Virus record (IMG/VR): IMGVR_UViG_3300005914_000014
Span: 1 to 50,110 of that record
Source: a virus
Reading direction: 5' to 3' (one strand)
DNA: 50,110 bases
Positions 24,272 through 49,274 of the stretch are shown here, piece by piece. The notes beneath the pieces were generated by a model that did not search any database, had not been told where the DNA came from, and saw only the letters and a list, made by a program, of their open reading frames with translations. Numbering within the stretch: the first letter of the stretch is position 1; every line of letters begins with the position of its first letter. The position numbers were made by a program, and so were the translations under genes.

Positions 24272-24648
24272 TTATTTCGCAATTTGATAAGTTATGTAAT
24301 TGGATAAAGCACGTGAATGATACAGACGTACTAATGGGAGAGGGCACTTCGTTTATGGGACATTACGTAAATCGAATCGTAATTCACCATAACTATAATT
24401 TAGAAAAAAATGGATTGATTGCTTTATTACATGAATGCGGTCATGCACTTCAACCAAAGACACCGACCGGAGTTAATAAATACAAATTATATGAAGTCAG
24501 ATCGGATAAATTTAAAAAAGGATTATACGAGAATGAAGTGGATGCATGGAAACGTGCTCGAGATATCGCAGTAGACCTACACTTAAATTTGGATTGGGTT
24601 GCATTTAACCGAGAAGAATCAGCATCAATTAAAACATATCAATATTAG
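24268..24648 (+). CDS. Small zinc metallopeptidase-like protein (HExxH)
   Basis: 126 residues with LIALLHECGHALQP: H55-E-C-G-H59, the zincin zinc site, preceded by the strand NRIVIHHNY. A downstream E90 (in YENEVDAWKRA) is well placed as third ligand, as in IrrE/ImmA-type and related small zincins, where E-x-x-A-x follows on a helix. It may cleave a host or phage protein, or be a structural relic; substrate unknown. Coupled to the upstream membrane protein. Confidence 0.75.
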   Translation: MIISQFDKLCNWIKHVNDTDVLMGEGTSFMGHYVNRIVIHHNYNLEKNGLIALLHECGHALQPKTPTGVNKYKLYEVRSDKFKKGLYENEVDAWKRARDIAVDLHLNLDWVAFNREESASIKTYQY

Positions 24649-27444: not shown

Positions 27445-29262
27445 ATGGCATACCAAAACATTTCCTTAAAAAGTATTGATTATAATAAATACCAAGTAGA
27501 CTTATGGGACGACGAGCACGGACATAATACATTTGAATGGAAACGAACTGCGTTTGTTCCAGATGCGGACGGAGATTATAAAACACTCACAGGAGTACCT
27601 GTAAGAAAAACGGAATGGTTTTCCCGACATGATGAGACATATGAGTCGGATGTGTCACCTGAAACTGCACTGTTAGTTGAATTATACGGAGCATCAGACG
27701 AACCACCTAAGTGGCAGAATAAATTTTACTTTGATATCGAGGTTTCGATGGAAGAAGAAGATTTGCCAGATCCACTAATCGGCAACAATCCAATTACGTC
27801 CATTGCATATTTCGATCAGACGACGGATGAGTGGGGTGTCTATATATTAGATGAAAATGATGAATTGACATCCACTGATTCATCCGATGACTATAAGTTA
27901 TTTATATGCAACTCGGAACGAGATTTACTTGCAAAGTTCTTGAACAAGTGGAAGGAATGTAACCCAACAATAGTTACAGGTTGGAACATTGATTTCTTTG
28001 ATATACCATACCTATACAATAGAATAAAGACTGTATTTAGTGCAGCAACAGCGAACCAACTATCACCAATCAATCGTGTGAAGTGGAATCCTAGAAAAGA
28101 GAAGTTTTTCATTGCAGGTGTTAGTTGCTTAGATTATATCACGTTATATAAGCAGTTTACATTTACACAACTTTCGAGTTATAGACTCGATGCGGTGGGT
28201 GAGTATGAACTAGGATATGGTAAGATTGAGTATGAGGGAACTCTCGACGACTTGAAACGAAATGACATTAGAAAATTTATTGAATATAACTTAGTCGATG
28301 TTAAGATTGTTAAGGAGTTCGAAGACAAACTTAAATTAATTGATTTATCGGTCGATATATGCCATATCGGACACGTGCCATATGAAAGTATATATCAATC
28401 ATCCAAGTGGATTGAAGGTGCCATTCTGTGCTATCTGAGACGTAATGGCAAGCGAGTTGCAACTAACAAGCCTGAACTCGAGGATGGTGAGGGTGATGGT
28501 GGATTCGCAGGTGCTTTTGTTAAGGAGCCTGTTCCTGGTAGATATGATTACATATATGATTTAGATTTGACATCTATGTATCCGTCAATTATCATGTCAT
28601 TGAATATAAGTCCTGAGACGAAGTTTGCAAAGGTTGCGAATTGGGATTTCGTTGCGTATAATAAACGAACTGTTGATACGTTATCCGTGACTATGTTTGA
28701 GTCAGGTGACACTATTGAATTGACATGTGACGAGTTTGCACAAATGCTTGAAGAAACTCAACACTCTATTTCATTCAATGGTATCATTTATAGAACCGAT
28801 GTCGCAGGAGTACTACCATCCATTTTAAAAGATTGGTTTGACTTACGTAGTGAATATAAGACATTGATGACCAAGTATGGTAATGAGGGAGATGATGATA
28901 AATATAGATTTTATAAACAACGACAGTTAATTCAGAAAGTACTTCTTAATAGTATCTACGGAGTATTGGGTCTTAAGTCTTTTAGATTCTTTGATTTAGA
29001 TAATGCACTTGCAGTAACTGCAGTAGGTCAGCAAATTATCAAATCTTCGTCCAATGCTGCAAATTATTACTACAACAAAGAGATGGGGTCTCGTATCACG
29101 GTATCAACCGACACGGGTGATGTTTATTTATTTAGTAATGTAGAATATACTATTGTTCGTGGTGATGCGACCATGCTCGTGGAAGGATCTTCTATTCGTC
29201 TAGATGACGACATCGTATCAGGATTTTTAATAGAAACTAATATGGCTAGCACCACCGCATGA
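27445..29262 (+). CDS. gp43: Family B DNA polymerase, N-terminal part (gp43A: exonuclease + palm/fingers)
   Basis: 605 residues. Exonuclease motifs: ExoI FYFDIEV (D97, E99), ExoII GWNIDFFD (N181, D186), ExoIII YNLVD (Y281, D285). Polymerase motif A YDLDLTSMYPSII (D374) and motif B QKVLLNSIYGVLG (K498, N502, Y505, G506). Motif C should lie about 55 residues after N502; at that spot the protein reads ITVSTDTGDVYLF (551-563) and then about 40 residues unlike a polymerase before the stop. The true motif C is on the next ORF. Together 906 aa, as T4 gp43 (898). Confidence 0.97.
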   Translation: MAYQNISLKSIDYNKYQVDLWDDEHGHNTFEWKRTAFVPDADGDYKTLTGVPVRKTEWFSRHDETYESDVSPETALLVELYGASDEPPKWQNKFYFDIEVSMEEEDLPDPLIGNNPITSIAYFDQTTDEWGVYILDENDELTSTDSSDDYKLFICNSERDLLAKFLNKWKECNPTIVTGWNIDFFDIPYLYNRIKTVFSAATANQLSPINRVKWNPRKEKFFIAGVSCLDYITLYKQFTFTQLSSYRLDAVGEYELGYGKIEYEGTLDDLKRNDIRKFIEYNLVDVKIVKEFEDKLKLIDLSVDICHIGHVPYESIYQSSKWIEGAILCYLRRNGKRVATNKPELEDGEGDGGFAGAFVKEPVPGRYDYIYDLDLTSMYPSIIMSLNISPETKFAKVANWDFVAYNKRTVDTLSVTMFESGDTIELTCDEFAQMLEETQHSISFNGIIYRTDVAGVLPSILKDWFDLRSEYKTLMTKYGNEGDDDKYRFYKQRQLIQKVLLNSIYGVLGLKSFRFFDLDNALAVTAVGQQIIKSSSNAANYYYNKEMGSRITVSTDTGDVYLFSNVEYTIVRGDATMLVEGSSIRLDDDIVSGFLIETNMASTTA

Positions 29263-30164
29263 AAATAACGCAAATAAAAAAGACAGAGTCGCATACCCAT
29301 GATTGGGTAATTTACGTGGACACAGACTCTGTATTTCTATCAGCAGTACCACTCATTAGAAAAAGATACCCAGCGATTCACATAGATGATGAAGTTACTA
29401 TGTGTGATAAAATTTCTGGAGTTGCAACCGAAATTCAGCGGTATATTAATGATTCATACGACTTGTTAGCAACTAAAGTTTATAACATAAAATCTCATAG
29501 ATTTGAAATAAAGCAAGAAAACATTGCTCGTAGGGGTATTTGGGTTGCTAAGAAACGATATGTGCAAAAAATTATTTGGGAGAACGGAGTAACTAAGAGT
29601 AGAGTAGATGTCAAGGGGTTGGACGTTAAACGATCCGACTTCCCAAAGGCATTTAAAATATTCATGTCTGGTATTCTTGATGATTTATTGGATGGTGTAG
29701 GTAAAGACGTTGTAGATGTGAAGATCAATACCTTTAAGTCTGGTTTAAAGAACATGCCACTATTAGATATATGCAAACCAACAGGTGTAAAAGGACTCAC
29801 TAAGTACAAAGGCAACGGTCAGTTTGGTAATACTGCAAAGGGAACTCCTGCGCACGTCAAGGCTGCCATATACTACAATGATTTAATCAAACTAAAAAAG
29901 TTGAATAAAAAATATCCACCTATTAAAAATGGTGAGAAGATTGTATGGATTTATCTGAAAGATAATTCTTACGGACTGCGGTCTATGGGTATTAAAGGTA
30001 GTGGTGATCCTGATATTATTGTTGAGTTTATTAATTCATACATGGACTCAGATAAAATGTTCTCAAGTATTCTTGAGAATAAACTAGACGACTTTTATAG
30101 TGCACTTAATTGGGATAGTTACAAACATGTGAATAAGACTGCATCGCAGTTCTTTTCATTCTAA
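29259..30164 (+). CDS. gp43: Family B DNA polymerase, C-terminal part (gp43B: motif C + thumb)
   Basis: 301 residues starting in an ATGA overlap with gp43A. After a short KITQIKKTESHTHD leader comes DWVIYVDTDSVFLSA, the catalytic motif C (D21, D23), then the KKRY region (GIWVAKKRYVQKIIW) and thumb (YLKDNSYGLRSMGIKG, INSYMDSDKMF). The two parts must associate to form an active enzyme, or be joined. The overlap should make them in roughly equal amounts. No homing endonuclease lies between them, unlike several known gp43 splits. Confidence 0.96.
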   Translation: MKITQIKKTESHTHDWVIYVDTDSVFLSAVPLIRKRYPAIHIDDEVTMCDKISGVATEIQRYINDSYDLLATKVYNIKSHRFEIKQENIARRGIWVAKKRYVQKIIWENGVTKSRVDVKGLDVKRSDFPKAFKIFMSGILDDLLDGVGKDVVDVKINTFKSGLKNMPLLDICKPTGVKGLTKYKGNGQFGNTAKGTPAHVKAAIYYNDLIKLKKLNKKYPPIKNGEKIVWIYLKDNSYGLRSMGIKGSGDPDIIVEFINSYMDSDKMFSSILENKLDDFYSALNWDSYKHVNKTASQFFSF

Positions 30165-33752: not shown

Positions 33753-34042
33753 CCTCGCAATATGTAGAAGTGGTGCCAATATTGGATGCATTCGAAATGA
33801 ATGCAGCAAGAATGGTCGACGAGTCCGAGTGGCCTGATTGGTTAATGGATGCACGTCGCCGGCCTTCGGGTGGGATTCATTCCATCTACAAGCCAACACC
33901 AGACTTCACTGACTGGGTAGTTATGAATCCGTCAGGTGCCCTGTTAGTTACGTCGGACGACTACATCGTAAAACATTCCAATGGAAATTTAGAATCAATG
34001 CCAAAATTAGAATTCTTAACAAAATACAAAAAATATAAATGA
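33749..34042 (+). CDS. Hypothetical protein (97 aa)
   Basis: Contains VDESEWPDWLMDARRRP, WVVMNPSGALLVTSDDYIVK and a basic end (KYKKYK). It resembles small phage proteins with the pattern PdWl ... W.v.nP.G .. v...D.i..., of unknown role. Overlaps neighbours by ATGA on both sides. No catalytic residues recognised. Confidence 0.65.
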   Translation: MTSQYVEVVPILDAFEMNAARMVDESEWPDWLMDARRRPSGGIHSIYKPTPDFTDWVVMNPSGALLVTSDDYIVKHSNGNLESMPKLEFLTKYKKYK

Positions 34043-34593
34043 TTAAATTAAAAAATATCCTCGGAGAAAATAGTAAGCAGACATATGACTATGGATGTGC
34101 AATGGTATTCTTTAATGCAACCACCATAATCAAACCAATACATAATCTCATAAGTCAATCTGACTTATATATTTCAGACAAAGGCAATTCTTATGGTAAA
34201 GAAGATGAACACCATACTACATTGCTATATGGGTTACATGAAGAGGTTACGTTAAAGGCAGTTACAGACATCATACAAACTTACGAGTTTACTAATTGTA
34301 TAATGCACAACCCATCTTTATTTAAAACTGACACCTATGATGTGTTGAAATACGAAGTTATGGGAGATAACTTACACTCAGTGAATCAGTCATTAAAAAA
34401 ACTACCATACACGACTTCGTTTCCGAAATACAATCCACATTTTACGATAGCATATTTAAAACCAGGATGTGGCAATTATTACGTCAATGAACTTAACACA
34501 CTCAAACTTAATAAATTTTCAATAACACCAACTCATGCAGTATATTCTACTGCAGATGGTAAAAAGCATAAAATTAAAATAAAAATTAAATAA
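34039..34593 (+). CDS. 2H phosphoesterase (2'-5' RNA ligase / Acb1-like) with capsid-targeting-like N-terminus
   Basis: 184 residues with the two H-x-T motifs of the 2H superfamily: EHHTTLLYG (H59, T61) and PHFTIAYLKPG (H134, T136), separated by 73 residues as in the duplicated 2H fold. Members cleave 2',5'- or cyclic phosphodiesters. Phage T4 Acb1 (gp57B) is a 2H enzyme that destroys CBASS cyclic nucleotides, so an anti-CBASS role is a real possibility. The N-terminus MIKLKNILGE resembles the T4 capsid-targeting peptide with an L-x-E cleavage site, suggesting packaging and injection. Other possibilities: RNA repair or NAD-related cyclic phosphate processing. Confidence 0.8.
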   Translation: MIKLKNILGENSKQTYDYGCAMVFFNATTIIKPIHNLISQSDLYISDKGNSYGKEDEHHTTLLYGLHEEVTLKAVTDIIQTYEFTNCIMHNPSLFKTDTYDVLKYEVMGDNLHSVNQSLKKLPYTTSFPKYNPHFTIAYLKPGCGNYYVNELNTLKLNKFSITPTHAVYSTADGKKHKIKIKIK

Positions 34594-41919: not shown

Positions 41920-41959
41920 GGTGATGATTGGGGTTCCACGGACAACAAACATTATGAAA
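41920..41959 (+). repeat. Repeated 40-nt leader, copy A
   Basis: GGTGATGATTGGGGTTCCAC, then GGACAACAAACATTATGAAA. It ends in the start codon of the gene at 41954. Copy B at 49235 has only a few substitutions over the same length and also ends at a start codon. In frame it also encodes GDDWGSTDNKHYE, so it may be the relic of a coding end. Confidence 0.85.
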
Positions 41960-43648: not shown

Positions 43649-43687
43649 TAAGCAATTTAATTAATAGTTATATAAAAAGATGTGACT

Positions 43688-44023
43688 ATGAAATTAAAGG
43701 AACCAAGTAATAAAGCATTCTTTGTGCAAAATTTAGTAAAACATACCTACAGGTCTCGATTTATTATAACAATTACAACACTAACAACATTTTTTGTTAT
43801 AGTGTCTGGTATTGGATATGGTATATGGGCAAGTGCGTCCGTGACCCATGAATGGAAAGAAATTCTTCTATTAATACTTGGTGCCTTTCTAGGATCGTAT
43901 AATAAAGTAATTGATTATTGGTTTAATTCATTGGAACGTGATCGAGACATGGTAAAACGAGCAGATGTTGAAGATGATGCGTTATGCGAATCATGTGGTA
44001 AATCTACAATAGAGAATCCATAA
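43688..44023 (+). CDS. Holin-like membrane protein (111 aa)
   Basis: Two membrane helices: residues 25-49 (FIITITTLTTFFVIVSGIGY) and 58-78 (EILLLILGAFLGSYNKVIDY), with a basic N-terminus and charged C-terminus containing C100-x2-C103. LLLILGAFLGSYNKVIDYWF resembles holin-type helices in T4-like marine phages. The GTG at 43682 is a less likely start. The endolysin is 3 kb downstream with four other genes between, so pairing as a lysis cassette is inferred. Confidence 0.55.
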   Translation: MKLKEPSNKAFFVQNLVKHTYRSRFIITITTLTTFFVIVSGIGYGIWASASVTHEWKEILLLILGAFLGSYNKVIDYWFNSLERDRDMVKRADVEDDALCESCGKSTIENP

Positions 44024-44117: not shown

Positions 44118-45224
44118 ATGAAATTATCAGATTTTTTAAGTGAAGACACCAAAAAACCTACCATGAGTAAGTTGCGTGGTGACGTAATAACAGTAGACTG
44201 TGCCAAGAGATGGGTCGAGTCGTTTACGAAAACGGTCGTAGTCGAAGGCACTGCAGACTCCCGTAGTAACATGAAACTAAACGTAACTGCACCGCCTTTC
44301 GCAGCAAGTACTATTAGAAAGCAACTAAGTGAAGTTAACATCCCATTTAAGTGGGTGAATGGTAATAATTATTCAATCGCATGTAACGTAGGTGATATGG
44401 CAAAGTTGTCTAACATTAAAAACTTTATGAAAGAGAGTGAGGAAGTGAGTGATGGTGACGAAACCAATACCACATCCACTGAGTTAGATGGTAGCACGGT
44501 AAGTCTTATGCTAGATGGGGATGCTATTTATGTAACAAAAATAGATAGTACACATGTCCGTACATTCAATTCAGAAGAAAACTATAATGACAGCAAAGGG
44601 TCTGCATGGCACGTCCGACAGTTAAGTCATACTCCATATTTTACCGACATGCTCAAGTGGTTGAAGGATGGCAAGTCAAAGCATATACAAGACAATACCT
44701 ACAACACTACGCAAAAAACCACTAACGAGTCCGTTAGTCGTAACAGTATAGTTAACACATTGCGTGAAGGAATAACTGCAGCATTTGTATCTGTAGATGA
44801 AACAAAAAATGGTATCGTTGCTAAGGTATCGTTAGACCCTATTAAATCAAATTCATTTATAACGTCACGGTATATGATGTTCTCCATCACCGAGAGTGGT
44901 CGTTTGCAGCAATTTAGTACTAGTTATAAGTTAAATGACATGCCAACACTAACTGAAGTTACGGTTAAGTCTGCAACTACTGCCGTTCGAAAGATTAATT
45001 ACTTAATTAAAGTAATCACAGAGAGACTAAATGGTCAATTCTCTAAGGGTGATACTGTAGTATTAACGAATGCAACTAAGTATAACCCACTATCAAAGAG
45101 CACAGTAGATGCTATCGTAGAAGGGTTTGATAAGTTCGGTAATGTAATTGTGGTAACTAAGACAGATGATTATGCAGTCGACCGATTTGACATCACTCAC
45201 AAAGAACCAACCATTAAAGTATAA
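44118..45224 (+). CDS. Putative internal head protein with capsid-targeting-like N-terminus (368 aa)
   Basis: The N-terminus MKLSDFLSED resembles the T4 capsid-targeting peptide MKTYQEFIAE (Met-Lys, aromatic/aliphatic positions, then hydrophobic-x-Glu cleaved by the prohead protease). Two similar segments (PPFAASTIRKQLSEVN and later STSYKLNDMPTLTEVTV) and a Thr/Ser-rich middle follow. No enzymatic motif. GAGAG near the start may act as a ribosome site. It heads a run of four genes with such N-termini. Confidence 0.6.
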   Translation: MKLSDFLSEDTKKPTMSKLRGDVITVDCAKRWVESFTKTVVVEGTADSRSNMKLNVTAPPFAASTIRKQLSEVNIPFKWVNGNNYSIACNVGDMAKLSNIKNFMKESEEVSDGDETNTTSTELDGSTVSLMLDGDAIYVTKIDSTHVRTFNSEENYNDSKGSAWHVRQLSHTPYFTDMLKWLKDGKSKHIQDNTYNTTQKTTNESVSRNSIVNTLREGITAAFVSVDETKNGIVAKVSLDPIKSNSFITSRYMMFSITESGRLQQFSTSYKLNDMPTLTEVTVKSATTAVRKINYLIKVITERLNGQFSKGDTVVLTNATKYNPLSKSTVDAIVEGFDKFGNVIVVTKTDDYAVDRFDITHKEPTIKV

Positions 45225-45234
45225 CCTAACTAAT

Positions 45235-45789
45235 ATGAAACTAAAAAAACTAATAGAATCATTGGCAGGCAATGACTGGATGAAGTCCGACGAAGAGAAT
45301 ACTACGATGAAACCTCACACTGTTGATAAATTTGAGACGAAGGAGACTGATAATGAGGGGGAAGTTGCTCGTATGCAAATGGTAAAGACGATGCAAGCGG
45401 CAGCCGAGATAATGGCAATGATTGATAATACGTCAGAATTGCCTGCATGGATTCAAGAAAAGCTAACTAAAATTGCAGATTACACTACAGGTGTCAGACA
45501 TTATATGGAGATGAAAACCACACGTCATGTAGTATCTCGTGTATCAGAGTCTCGGTTAAATGAAAAGTCATCCAACTCCAACACTATTGAAGATAGTGAT
45601 GTAGAAGAGATTATGATAAATGGCATGCAATATATGCTAAGTGACTTAAAGAAATCTAAGCTAAATAAGATGCTACTGATGAGTGATGGGTCTGAACAGA
45701 AGGTTACGAAAATCATGGGTAACTATGATGATGACCGTGGTGTTTACTTCCGATTCAAGTTAGACGATGGCACCTGGTACGACATTTAG
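45235..45789 (+). CDS. Putative virion protein with capsid-targeting-like N-terminus (184 aa)
   Basis: ATG 45235 is chosen (an upstream frame would overlap the previous gene). Begins MKLKKLIESLAGN. The middle EIMAMIDNTSELPAWIQEKL then TKIADYTTGVRHYME is a phrase I recognise from small virion-associated proteins of T4-like phages (W.Q.Ki..a.dY...v..Y). The C-terminal 50 residues form a beta domain (KVTKIMGNYDDDRGVYFRFK). Likely packaged; function unknown. Confidence 0.65.
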   Translation: MKLKKLIESLAGNDWMKSDEENTTMKPHTVDKFETKETDNEGEVARMQMVKTMQAAAEIMAMIDNTSELPAWIQEKLTKIADYTTGVRHYMEMKTTRHVVSRVSESRLNEKSSNSNTIEDSDVEEIMINGMQYMLSDLKKSKLNKMLLMSDGSEQKVTKIMGNYDDDRGVYFRFKLDDGTWYDI

Positions 45790-45810
45790 TAAACAACAAA
45801 TAATATCAAA

Positions 45811-46329
45811 ATGAAAAAACTTAAAAATTATATTAATGAAGTCACTATTACTGATGAATCTATTGCAACTAAAATAGATGAGTATGTAGCACTGACTAAG
45901 AAAATGGTTGCAGAGACTAATCAACTTGCTAAAACTAAGAAAGAAATTGGAGATGCTGCTATAGAATTAGAACCCACATTGCGATTACTTACTGAAAAGG
46001 TTGAATCCTCCGTCGTAACTGCTAAGAGTATACTCGAGTTAAAAAAAGCAGGATACTCTAGAATGAATCCATCGTACAAGGAAGCATTTGTTACAGCATT
46101 ATCGAAGGTTAATCCAGCAACTCGTAAAGTTCTTGAAAACATACTTAAATTAAGTGTTACTACAACTAAAATTGCTGCTACGTTCAAGTCAAACTCACTT
46201 ACAGAAATGAATATGAGTGACATTAAAAGATTTTTTGGAAGTATATTTAACAAACTCAAAGCATCATTTACTTCATGGACGCAACACAATAAAACGTTAG
46301 ATATCGTAATAAAAAAAATTAGTAAGTAA
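45811..46329 (+). CDS. Putative helical internal protein with capsid-targeting-like N-terminus (172 aa)
   Basis: Begins MKKLKNYINEV, with I-N-E at residues 8-10 fitting the cleavage pattern. The remainder is lysine-rich and mostly helical (DEYVALTKKMVAETNQLAKT, NPATRKVLENILKLS), as T4 internal proteins are. No membrane helix or motif. It follows the 184-aa gene by 21 nt with no promoter between, so it is co-expressed. Confidence 0.6.
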   Translation: MKKLKNYINEVTITDESIATKIDEYVALTKKMVAETNQLAKTKKEIGDAAIELEPTLRLLTEKVESSVVTAKSILELKKAGYSRMNPSYKEAFVTALSKVNPATRKVLENILKLSVTTTKIAATFKSNSLTEMNMSDIKRFFGSIFNKLKASFTSWTQHNKTLDIVIKKISK

Positions 46330-46342
46330 TTAATTAAATGCA

Positions 46343-47017
46343 ATGATTTATAAAGATTTCTTCGCATACATTACCGAATCAGGTGGGTTGAAATTTGATG
46401 AGCTTAAAGATAAGAGATTCAAAAATCCATTGACAGGTAAACTTATAAAAGTAGCATCTGCACTTACATATGACCACGATACTCAGCCATATAAGATGGC
46501 AATCGAGTATCTCAAATTATATGGAATTGATTATACGAATAAAGATACGGTAGATGACACCGAGTCAGCACCTACTCGATCCAAGTCAGCTAATTCGGAA
46601 ACTAAAGTTAATACCTTATTAGATACGAGTAAGTTATTTTTTCGATTTGATAAGACTACTAATACAATCTTAATTTCTATTGTACCCACAGAAGATGCTG
46701 TAACTATAGAATTTAATAAATTAGACGGCATTCTTTCGTTGACATTACTAACACGAGGTTCTGTCTCAGATACATCATCCTTTAAGAAGAAACAATTTTA
46801 TAGAGTCGGTGATAAGTACGACTTACAAGTCAAGAAAAAGAATAGATTCTATACCACGATACGCAGATTTTTATCCGACAATATTACCATTATCGGTAGA
46901 AAGATGTCTGAGTTAAGTAGTGAAGATGACTTCAAAACAAATGATGATAAGCAATTATTATATAAAGAATTAAGAATTATGATAAAGTCTGCTAAGAAAA
47001 TAAAACAAAAAAAATAA
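46343..47017 (+). CDS. Putative internal protein with capsid-targeting-like N-terminus (224 aa)
   Basis: Begins MIYKDFFAYITESGG, with I-T-E at residues 10-12. Residues 15-60 may be a small domain, followed by a Ser/Thr-rich linker (about 65-85), a beta-rich middle (LFFRFDKTTNTILISIVPTE) and a basic helical end (MIKSAKKIKQKK). The basic tail fits DNA binding inside the head. Function unknown. The endolysin starts 4 nt after its stop. Confidence 0.6.
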   Translation: MIYKDFFAYITESGGLKFDELKDKRFKNPLTGKLIKVASALTYDHDTQPYKMAIEYLKLYGIDYTNKDTVDDTESAPTRSKSANSETKVNTLLDTSKLFFRFDKTTNTILISIVPTEDAVTIEFNKLDGILSLTLLTRGSVSDTSSFKKKQFYRVGDKYDLQVKKKNRFYTTIRRFLSDNITIIGRKMSELSSEDDFKTNDDKQLLYKELRIMIKSAKKIKQKK

Positions 47018-47021
47018 TGAT

Positions 47022-47621
47022 ATGAATATTAATGTGCTCCGAGGTATAATTCCAGACGAACCGTTTTCTGAGATTGATGAAGTTATTAAAAACTTTAACA
47101 TAAACACCCCACTCAGAATGTCACACTTCCTAGCGCAATGTGCGCATGAGAGTGGTGTATTTAGGTGGAAGGTTGAAAATTTGAATTATTCTAAAGAAGC
47201 ATTAATGATTACATTTCGCAAGTACTTCCCAACTGTGGAAGTGGCATCTAAGTATGCCAGAAATCCTGAGATGATTGCAAACCGAGCATACGCAAATCGT
47301 ATGAATAATGGTGACGAAGCAAGTGGTGATGGTTGGAAATATCGAGGACGTGGGTACATTCAACTGACAGGTAAAGACAATTACACTAGGTTTAATGACC
47401 ATGTTGATGTAGATGTACTAAATAATCCAGACCTCGTTGCGGAGAGATATCCATTATTGTCAGCATCGTGGTTCTGGTCATCCAATCGATTGAATAGCAT
47501 TGCAGATCAAGGGTCGACCGAGGATGTAGTAAAACAGATAACTAGACGGGTTAACGGTGGGTTTAATGGACTAGCAGACAGACAGAAAAAGTTTGATATG
47601 CTGTATGAGTTGTTATCTTGA
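47022..47621 (+). CDS. Endolysin, GH19 chitinase-like muramidase
   Basis: 199 residues. FLAQCAHESGVFRWKVENLN carries the first catalytic Glu (E43 in AHES, with E52 nearby), followed by GDGWKYRGRGYIQLTGKDNY, a GH19 core signature, and ITRRVNGGFNGLADRQ at the end. No signal peptide, so export needs a holin. It cuts peptidoglycan sugar chains at the end of infection. No clear terminator follows. Confidence 0.94.
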   Translation: MNINVLRGIIPDEPFSEIDEVIKNFNINTPLRMSHFLAQCAHESGVFRWKVENLNYSKEALMITFRKYFPTVEVASKYARNPEMIANRAYANRMNNGDEASGDGWKYRGRGYIQLTGKDNYTRFNDHVDVDVLNNPDLVAERYPLLSASWFWSSNRLNSIADQGSTEDVVKQITRRVNGGFNGLADRQKKFDMLYELLS

Positions 47622-47713: not shown

Positions 47714-48004
47714 ATGAAAAATTTTCAGTTAAAATTACTAGTTAGTGAAGAAATCAAAAGGTTCATGGAATGGTTTGCCCTAAATGAGATAGAATTAAAG
47801 CAAACCACGACGATTATGCCTGACGAACTTACATCAGTAGTCGATGCAATAAAGAAGAGAAGTAAATATACCGACATGCAACAGGTAAAATCAGGTAATA
47901 CTATTACATTTACTCTGAACGGTGATGAGGTTATGCGATATGATTTAAAGAAATTCACACTACATCACAACTTTCTGCCATCTACCATAGTAGATACAAT
48001 TTAA
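47714..48004 (+). CDS. Hypothetical protein (96 aa)
   Basis: N-terminal helix (FQLKLLVSEEIKRFMEWFAL), a central DELTSVVDAIKKRSKYTDM and a beta end (NTITFTLNGDEVMRYDLKKF). No family recognised. The 92-nt gap upstream contains an imperfect GTGATA/TATCAC hairpin without a T run. Confidence 0.6.
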   Translation: MKNFQLKLLVSEEIKRFMEWFALNEIELKQTTTIMPDELTSVVDAIKKRSKYTDMQQVKSGNTITFTLNGDEVMRYDLKKFTLHHNFLPSTIVDTI

Positions 48005-48015
48005 TTAAGAAATAA

Positions 48016-48633
48016 ATGTTACTTAAATCTCAGATTTTAGATGCACAATCTAAATCAAAATCTGCATTTGCGTGTGCAAGATATTTAAAAGTATCTTACC
48101 CAACATATAAGAAGTGGGCGAAGTATCACGAAGTGTTCGAAAACTTAATCAATCCGAATGGATTTGGTGTCCGACGACCGAAGACGAAGCAAGTTGCGAA
48201 GAACCTACTTGCATATATAAGTGGTGAGAAGATTCACACGGTTCCTCGGACGTATATGAATCAGTTAATAAAGCATCATTACAAAGATGATCGATGTGAA
48301 TCGTGTGGGTTTGATAATAGCCGAGATGATGGCAAGAAGCCATTCTTAATTAATTTTATAGATGGTGTTAAAAAGAACACGCGTCTTGAAAATATAGAAA
48401 TTCTGTGCTACAACTGCTATTACATAAATGTTGGAGGTGAACTCATTGCGAATCGCCGACGTAAGTACTGGACTCCAAGTTACTTCAATACAGCATCGAA
48501 TGTTAATATCTCTAAGTACGATGATGAAAGTATGAAATGGAGTGACATAGACATGGAAAGTGTACCAGAAGATAACCTACAAACTCCCGACGACCGAGAT
48601 GTCGATGATTTATTCAATAAATTGAACAATTAA
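48016..48633 (+). CDS. HNH-like zinc protein with N-terminal HTH (205 aa)
   Basis: Residues 15-45 (SAFACARYLKVSYPTYKKWA) look like a helix-turn-helix. The central domain DRCESCGFDNSRDDGKKPFL, then INFIDGVKKNTRLENIEILC and YNCYYINVGG, has the two CxxC knuckles and LENI.iLC.NC of HNH proteins. The usual catalytic His (LH.dG / HH) is replaced by INFIDG, so nuclease activity is doubtful. It may be a DNA-binding regulator. The C-terminus is acidic. Confidence 0.75.
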   Translation: MLLKSQILDAQSKSKSAFACARYLKVSYPTYKKWAKYHEVFENLINPNGFGVRRPKTKQVAKNLLAYISGEKIHTVPRTYMNQLIKHHYKDDRCESCGFDNSRDDGKKPFLINFIDGVKKNTRLENIEILCYNCYYINVGGELIANRRRKYWTPSYFNTASNVNISKYDDESMKWSDIDMESVPEDNLQTPDDRDVDDLFNKLNN

Positions 48634-49234: not shown

Positions 49235-49274
49235 GGTGATGATTGGGTTTCCGCAGACAACAAACATTATGAAA
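49235..49274 (+). repeat. Repeated 40-nt leader, copy B
   Basis: GGTGATGATTGGGTTTCCGC, then AGACAACAAACATTATGAAA, ending at the start of the helicase gene. The only differences from copy A at 41920 are in the TGGGGTTCCACGGA versus TGGGTTTCCGCAGA stretch. An ACCCAT block upstream is also shared (offset by one indel). Confidence 0.85.

Follow-up and report, generated by a model that had tools for sequence, protein, structure and literature searches.

The genes that directly precede the endolysin gene in this virus fragment probably form a swappable set of internal proteins of the T4 type, which would be loaded into the prohead, cut after a glutamate (Glu) close to their N-termini and probably injected into the host. 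The fragment (IMG/VR record IMGVR_UViG_3300005914_000014, 50,110 bases, hereafter the window) comes from a distant, uncultured T4-type phage and encodes sheath, tube, RecA, helicase, family B polymerase, clamp and clamp loader proteins. Among cultured phages, Microcystis phage Mel-JY01 and Flavobacterium phage immuto come closest by tail sheath (39-45% identity). No capsid, S77 prohead protease or scaffold gene was found within the 50 kb of the fragment. The genes discussed below are the following:

34039..34593, + strand: predicted 2H phosphoesterase-fold protein, with the canonical tag MIKLKNILGE (34039-34068)
43682..44023, + strand: membrane-type protein bordering the cassette on the left, 37-42% identical to homologues in the related phages G003 and G005
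44118..45224, + strand: orphan protein of 368 aa, T4 register with Glu at 9
45235..45789, + strand: T4-type family protein (EGEMAKSQ...LPAWVQ) with relatives in G003, G005 and Mel-JY01
45811..46329, + strand: orphan protein of 172 aa, register and length as in T4 MKTYQEFIAE
46343..47017, + strand: orphan protein of 224 aa, T4 register with Glu at 12
47022..47621, + strand: GH19-type endolysin (Pfam Glyco_hydro_19, PHROG endolysin)
47714..48004, + strand: small protein of 96 aa, T4 register with Glu at 12, no family in Pfam or PHROGs

The genes at 44118, 45235, 45811 and 46343 are all encoded on the + strand with successive gaps of 10, 21 and 13 nt, and the run stops 4 nt 5' of the endolysin gene, which confirms the position beside a lysis gene that an earlier note on this DNA had assigned to them. 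The coordinates and N-termini given there (MKLSDFLSE, MKLKKLIES, MKKLKNYINE and MIYKDFFAYITE) were also correct and, as had been stated, the four proteins share no mutual similarity and have no confident family in Pfam or PHROGs. In G003 and G005, too, the homologue of 43682 adjoins the endolysin region; the product of 43682 might, as a guess, be a holin. An HNH endonuclease gene (48016-48633) directly follows the cassette.

Some observations concern other parts of the window. The family B DNA polymerase is split into overlapping ORFs (27445-29262 and 29259-30164), and where they join there are about 50 additional residues; it is split in G003 too and is a single 833-aa ORF in G004, and the split is possibly due to a split intein or a frameshift. 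One leader stands ahead of two genes, at 41921-41957 and 49236-49272; its in-frame read-through is MMIGVPRTTNIM and MMIGFPQTTNIM, with MKILYR and MKLRNN as the likely starts, and this repeat may be a regulatory element. Positions 3-536 hold a tail-fibre-like ORF that is truncated and contains repeats like GAGTQDAGLAFGG.

The T4 tag, MKTYQEFIAE as read from the T4 record, directs targeting mainly through residues 4 and 7 and processing through residues 8 and 10 (PMC9026906). The register tested here consists of hydrophobic residues at Glu-6, Glu-3 and Glu-2, the Glu itself at positions 9-12, and a basic residue at positions 2-5. It is matched by exactly five of the 64 window genes (34039, 44118, 45811, 46343 and 47714) and by none of the 282 internal methionines; relative to T4 it is shifted by -1 in 44118 and by +2 in 46343 and 47714. 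The earlier note had proposed five candidates, namely the four genes of the run and 34039, all with a T4-like signal. Five is still the number, and the signal holds for 44118, 45811, 46343 and 34039, while 45235 does not match the register and drops out and 47714, absent from the earlier list, enters.

In the three orphans, the predicted tags are MKLSDFLSE for 44118 (44118-44144; mature part 359 aa, pI 8.3), MKKLKNYINE for 45811 (45811-45840; mature part 162 aa, pI 9.7, charge +10) and MIYKDFFAYITE for 46343 (46343-46378; mature part 212 aa, pI 9.6, charge +12). The register of 47714 lies in MKNFQLKLLVSE (47714-47749), and this product has a pI of 6.1. Homologue searches with the three orphans matched only a near-identical contig, and the AlphaFold model of 44118, built without relatives, has a pLDDT of 39 and no usable fold. 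Judged from the N-termini, the tag on these three proteins is well supported and very likely genuine.

A run of six consecutive genes contains four of the five matches (permutation p about 0.004), a figure that, like the other window statistics, is only suggestive because the Glu range of 9-12 was fixed after these proteins had been seen and is partly post hoc. When the comparison took in the window, eight other contigs and Mel-JY01, with genes called by a simple gene caller, the register was found at 50 of 1078 gene starts versus 7 of 4869 internal methionines (p 2e-30). A very loose motif, which 15 of the 64 window genes match, was not significant within the window and was dropped as a test. 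Since the gene caller was simple and the Glu range had been chosen with knowledge of the proteins, an independent test was carried out in IMG/VR, and this unbiased scan of other phages, rather than the window, provides the decisive support for the tag.

IMG/VR was scanned for DNA encoding MIKLK[DN]IL, with the subsequent residues left free and no Glu imposed. Glu occupied residue 10 in 94 of 107 distinct ORFs of at least 60 aa, against a background of 6.9% (p 3e-94), and just two of the 107 had no Glu anywhere at positions 9-16. Among 20 records checked, the pattern occurred 29 times and the reversed pattern never, and ten of these records contained an S77 prohead protease. The bodies that follow the tag are diverse, the first 80 ORFs representing about 55 families without mutual similarity, and they are basic (median pI 9.0 versus 6.1 across all genes). 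Profile matches include Nudix, zeta-toxin-type kinase, exonuclease, ATP-grasp and peptidoglycan hydrolases as well as unknowns, and some tagged proteins match phage lysozyme, M23 peptidase, cell-wall hydrolase or tape-measure profiles. Because the tag is also present on peptidoglycan hydrolases and tape-measure-profile proteins, some tagged proteins may not be injected effectors. These counts indicate that the tag is almost certainly a real class. A scan with MKLKDIL, in which distinct ORFs with the match near the frame start were counted, was set aside as less specific than MIKLK[DN]IL: Glu was at residue 9 in 33 of 60, and many matches were apparently unrelated.

The enzyme encoded at 34039 offers another view of the tag. 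Its AlphaFold model (pLDDT 87) is well folded apart from residues 1-13, which are disordered, as expected for a removable tag. The modelled fold is that of a 2H protein, matching Usb1 and Acb1 at equal rank, and both HxT motifs (HTT and HFT) are present. The PHROG match is RNA ligase (E 3e-9), and the PDB profile match to Acb1 has an E of 0.28; the Acb1 label is premature because the Pfam Acb1 score (E 7e-5, 23.0 bits) is under the family cut-off of 27. The enzyme may, as a guess, degrade a cyclic-nucleotide alarm signal.

Relatives of 34039 carry four different N-terminal extensions, MIKLKNILGE, MIKLLDLLKE, MIKKFTEFVNE and MKNNPFKRLQELAGIITE, which all end in Glu at one junction. In the tagged relatives KQTYDYG follows within two residues of this Glu, and untagged relatives begin directly with M[SN][ED]KQTYDYG. 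Tagged and untagged forms of one 2H enzyme amount to a natural experiment on delivery. The phage with the MIKKFTEFVNE form (G055) encodes five other proteins with a near-start dialect, [YFLK][ST]xF[ILV]xE. Untagged 2H copies might be confined to phages that lack the protease; no S77 protease was detected on the contigs of these copies, all of which are fragments, and one of them (G049) has tag-like N-termini of its own. With regard to dialects, [YFLK][ST]xF[ILV]xE, which resembles T4 TYQEFIAE, occurs on six G055 proteins within 33 kb (L414-L415). In G049, which has an untagged 2H copy, three proteins (L407-L410) begin with M[KE][QK]LIRKIL[KN]EE, which may be an additional dialect of the tag.

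Related phages connect the tag to head assembly. G008, G009, G014 and G015, whose RecA is about 58-59% identical to that of the window phage, carry an S77 prohead protease, and near it are genes starting with MKLKKILKE, MKLKQILHE, MKLKDILKE and MKLKNLLYE. Where T4 gp23 is cut during maturation, the gp23 proteins of these four phages read L[IV]xE followed by A. Tag-like starts also occur in the cultured phages, in Mel-JY01 at 60276 (MIKLKSLLQE, then I) and 62056 (MIKLMSLVTE, then T) and in immuto at 24569 (MIKLIDLLTE, then S) and 112261 (MRLLELLRE, then A). The check proposed earlier, a search for the same motif on the scaffold and the prohead protease, concerns two genes outside the window; in the relatives, tagged genes flank the protease and gp22. 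Starts resembling K..LRKIIREE, some of them beside the prohead protease, were seen in G009 (84388), G010 (60359), G014 (66876), G015 (44667) and immuto (113188), and these N-termini may be a second head-tag class.

The closest phages by RecA, apart from near-identical contigs, are G003 and G005 (76-77%). There, the interval from a glycosyltransferase block to the 43682 homologue and the endolysin contains different tagged genes plus a relative of 45235, with tags such as MIKLKDILHE, MKLKDIVKE, MIKLTEILAE, MIKLKDLLTE and MIRLKTLLDE. The T4 record has the gene order ipII-ipIII-e, in which ipII and ipIII adjoin the lysozyme gene e.

The second gene of the run, 45235, stands apart. Its longest frame begins at 45166 and overlaps the neighbouring gene; the start at 45235 is more likely. 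MKLKKLIE, the resulting N-terminus, lies outside the T4 register and can be no more than a weak tag, and the product is acidic (pI 4.9). Canonical tags occur in its family (L182, L243, L171, L207 and L208), and in the phage of L182 this gene follows the S77 protease at a distance of about 1 kb and stands two genes upstream of gp22. A search with 45235 against cultured phages gave no match, and L243 matched weakly in two cyanophages only. Because 45235 is acidic, fits poorly at its N-terminus and has a relative adjoining the gp22 scaffold gene, its product is probably a prohead-core protein rather than an effector, and its own tag has most likely decayed or differs.

The proposed route is as follows. 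Late in infection, together with the endolysin, each protein would be made with an N-terminal tag of 9-12 residues, whose hydrophobic face (Glu-6 and Glu-3) would dock it inside the prohead's scaffold core. A prohead protease of the S77 (gp21) type would then cut after the Glu in [hydrophobic][hydrophobic]-x-Glu, and the mature, mostly basic protein would be freed among the DNA and enter the next host together with the injected genome. Docking, packaging, cleavage, injection and late expression are all inferred by analogy with T4. At the level of sequence, the route is supported by the tag itself, the Glu preference, the unrelated cargo, the presence or absence of the tag on one enzyme, the variability of the locus, and the co-occurrence of the tag with the protease and a matching capsid site in related phages.

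Parts of this evidence would also suit a head-assembly locus, where the tagged proteins are core or scaffold parts that shape the head and end up degraded or inert instead of being injected. In relatives, the prohead protease and gp22 are flanked by tagged genes, one of which belongs to the 45235 family, and gp21 also cuts core proteins of T4 (PMC9026906). For the cassette as a whole this is nevertheless unlikely: it sits beside the endolysin, away from the head operon, its content varies between close relatives, unlike core genes, its cargo includes folded enzymes (2H, Nudix, kinase and exonuclease), and the orphans are basic like the T4 internal proteins. The hydrolase and tape-measure matches among tagged cargo elsewhere could instead mean that the tagged proteins belong to the tail or baseplate (e.g., virion hydrolases) and are cut for maturation, not stored in the head. 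That is very improbable, given that the S77 protease of T4 works inside the prohead (PMC9026906) and that Pfam and PHROGs show no hydrolase or tail domain in the window proteins.

It is also quite improbable that the pattern is an ordinary amphipathic start, or a membrane, degradation or baseplate signal, with four look-alikes produced by chance. Lys and Ile are indeed common at the starts of phage proteins, the loose motif is frequent and two members do not keep the consensus length, but such signals do not strongly favour Glu at one position and the pattern is almost never found at internal methionines. Furthermore, phages of the same broad clade have a matching pattern at the cleavage site of their capsid protein, and an S77 protease is often present in the tag-bearing records.

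The cassette has several features in common with the internal-protein genes of T4. Both systems have a 10-residue tag in one register (MKKLKNYINE and MKTYQEFIAE) with Glu at the predicted cut, and unrelated basic bodies encoded by consecutive genes that adjoin a lysozyme gene; 45811, 46343 and 44118 are basic, and 45235 and 47714 are the exceptions. Unlike in T4, the consensus here is clade-specific (e.g., MIKLKDILxE), the tag length is 9-12 and recognisable enzymes are tagged too. 34039 resembles Acb1 (T4 gene 57B) and other 2H phosphoesterases in being phage-encoded with the 2H fold and both HxT motifs, and differs in its weak sequence match and in its tag, as T4 57B has no fitting one (MMEFKDFSTGLY). 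Earlier work proposed, from MuF/portal fusions and gene context, that 2H, Nudix and ART proteins are packaged in heads (PMC9503650); the same enzyme classes are thus proposed in heads, there by fusion to a structural domain and here by a short cleavable tag on stand-alone proteins. The head propeptides of the giant phage SPN3US are likewise cut by the prohead protease after x-Glu, but with an AxE motif and mostly long propeptides of 111-254 residues (PMC10052503). A literature search found no description of such a tag on stand-alone enzymes or other proteins outside T-even and giant phages, which does not prove that none exists.

In T4, each of the three internal proteins is an inhibitor of GmrSD-type restriction (PMC12373910; PMC9391042), and for this reason counter-defence, most likely against immediate defences, is a plausible guess for the role of the cassette in the host; host takeover or a structural role are possible alternatives. 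More tentatively, the portable, clade-specific, cleavable tag may be a general address label in T4-type environmental phages, by which nearly any enzyme could be preloaded from fast-changing lysis-side cassettes. If so, a CBASS-type signal degrader would be active at time zero, before phage gene expression. Knowledge of what contractile-tailed phages inject along with their DNA comes mostly from T4, and a tag that can be read from sequence would give lists of candidate injected proteins across thousands of uncultured phages. The occurrence of the tag on dozens of unrelated families in related phages therefore opens a route to predicting injected proteins and, as the T4 internal proteins are all anti-restriction factors (PMC12373910), such a list of candidates could yield new defence inhibitors.
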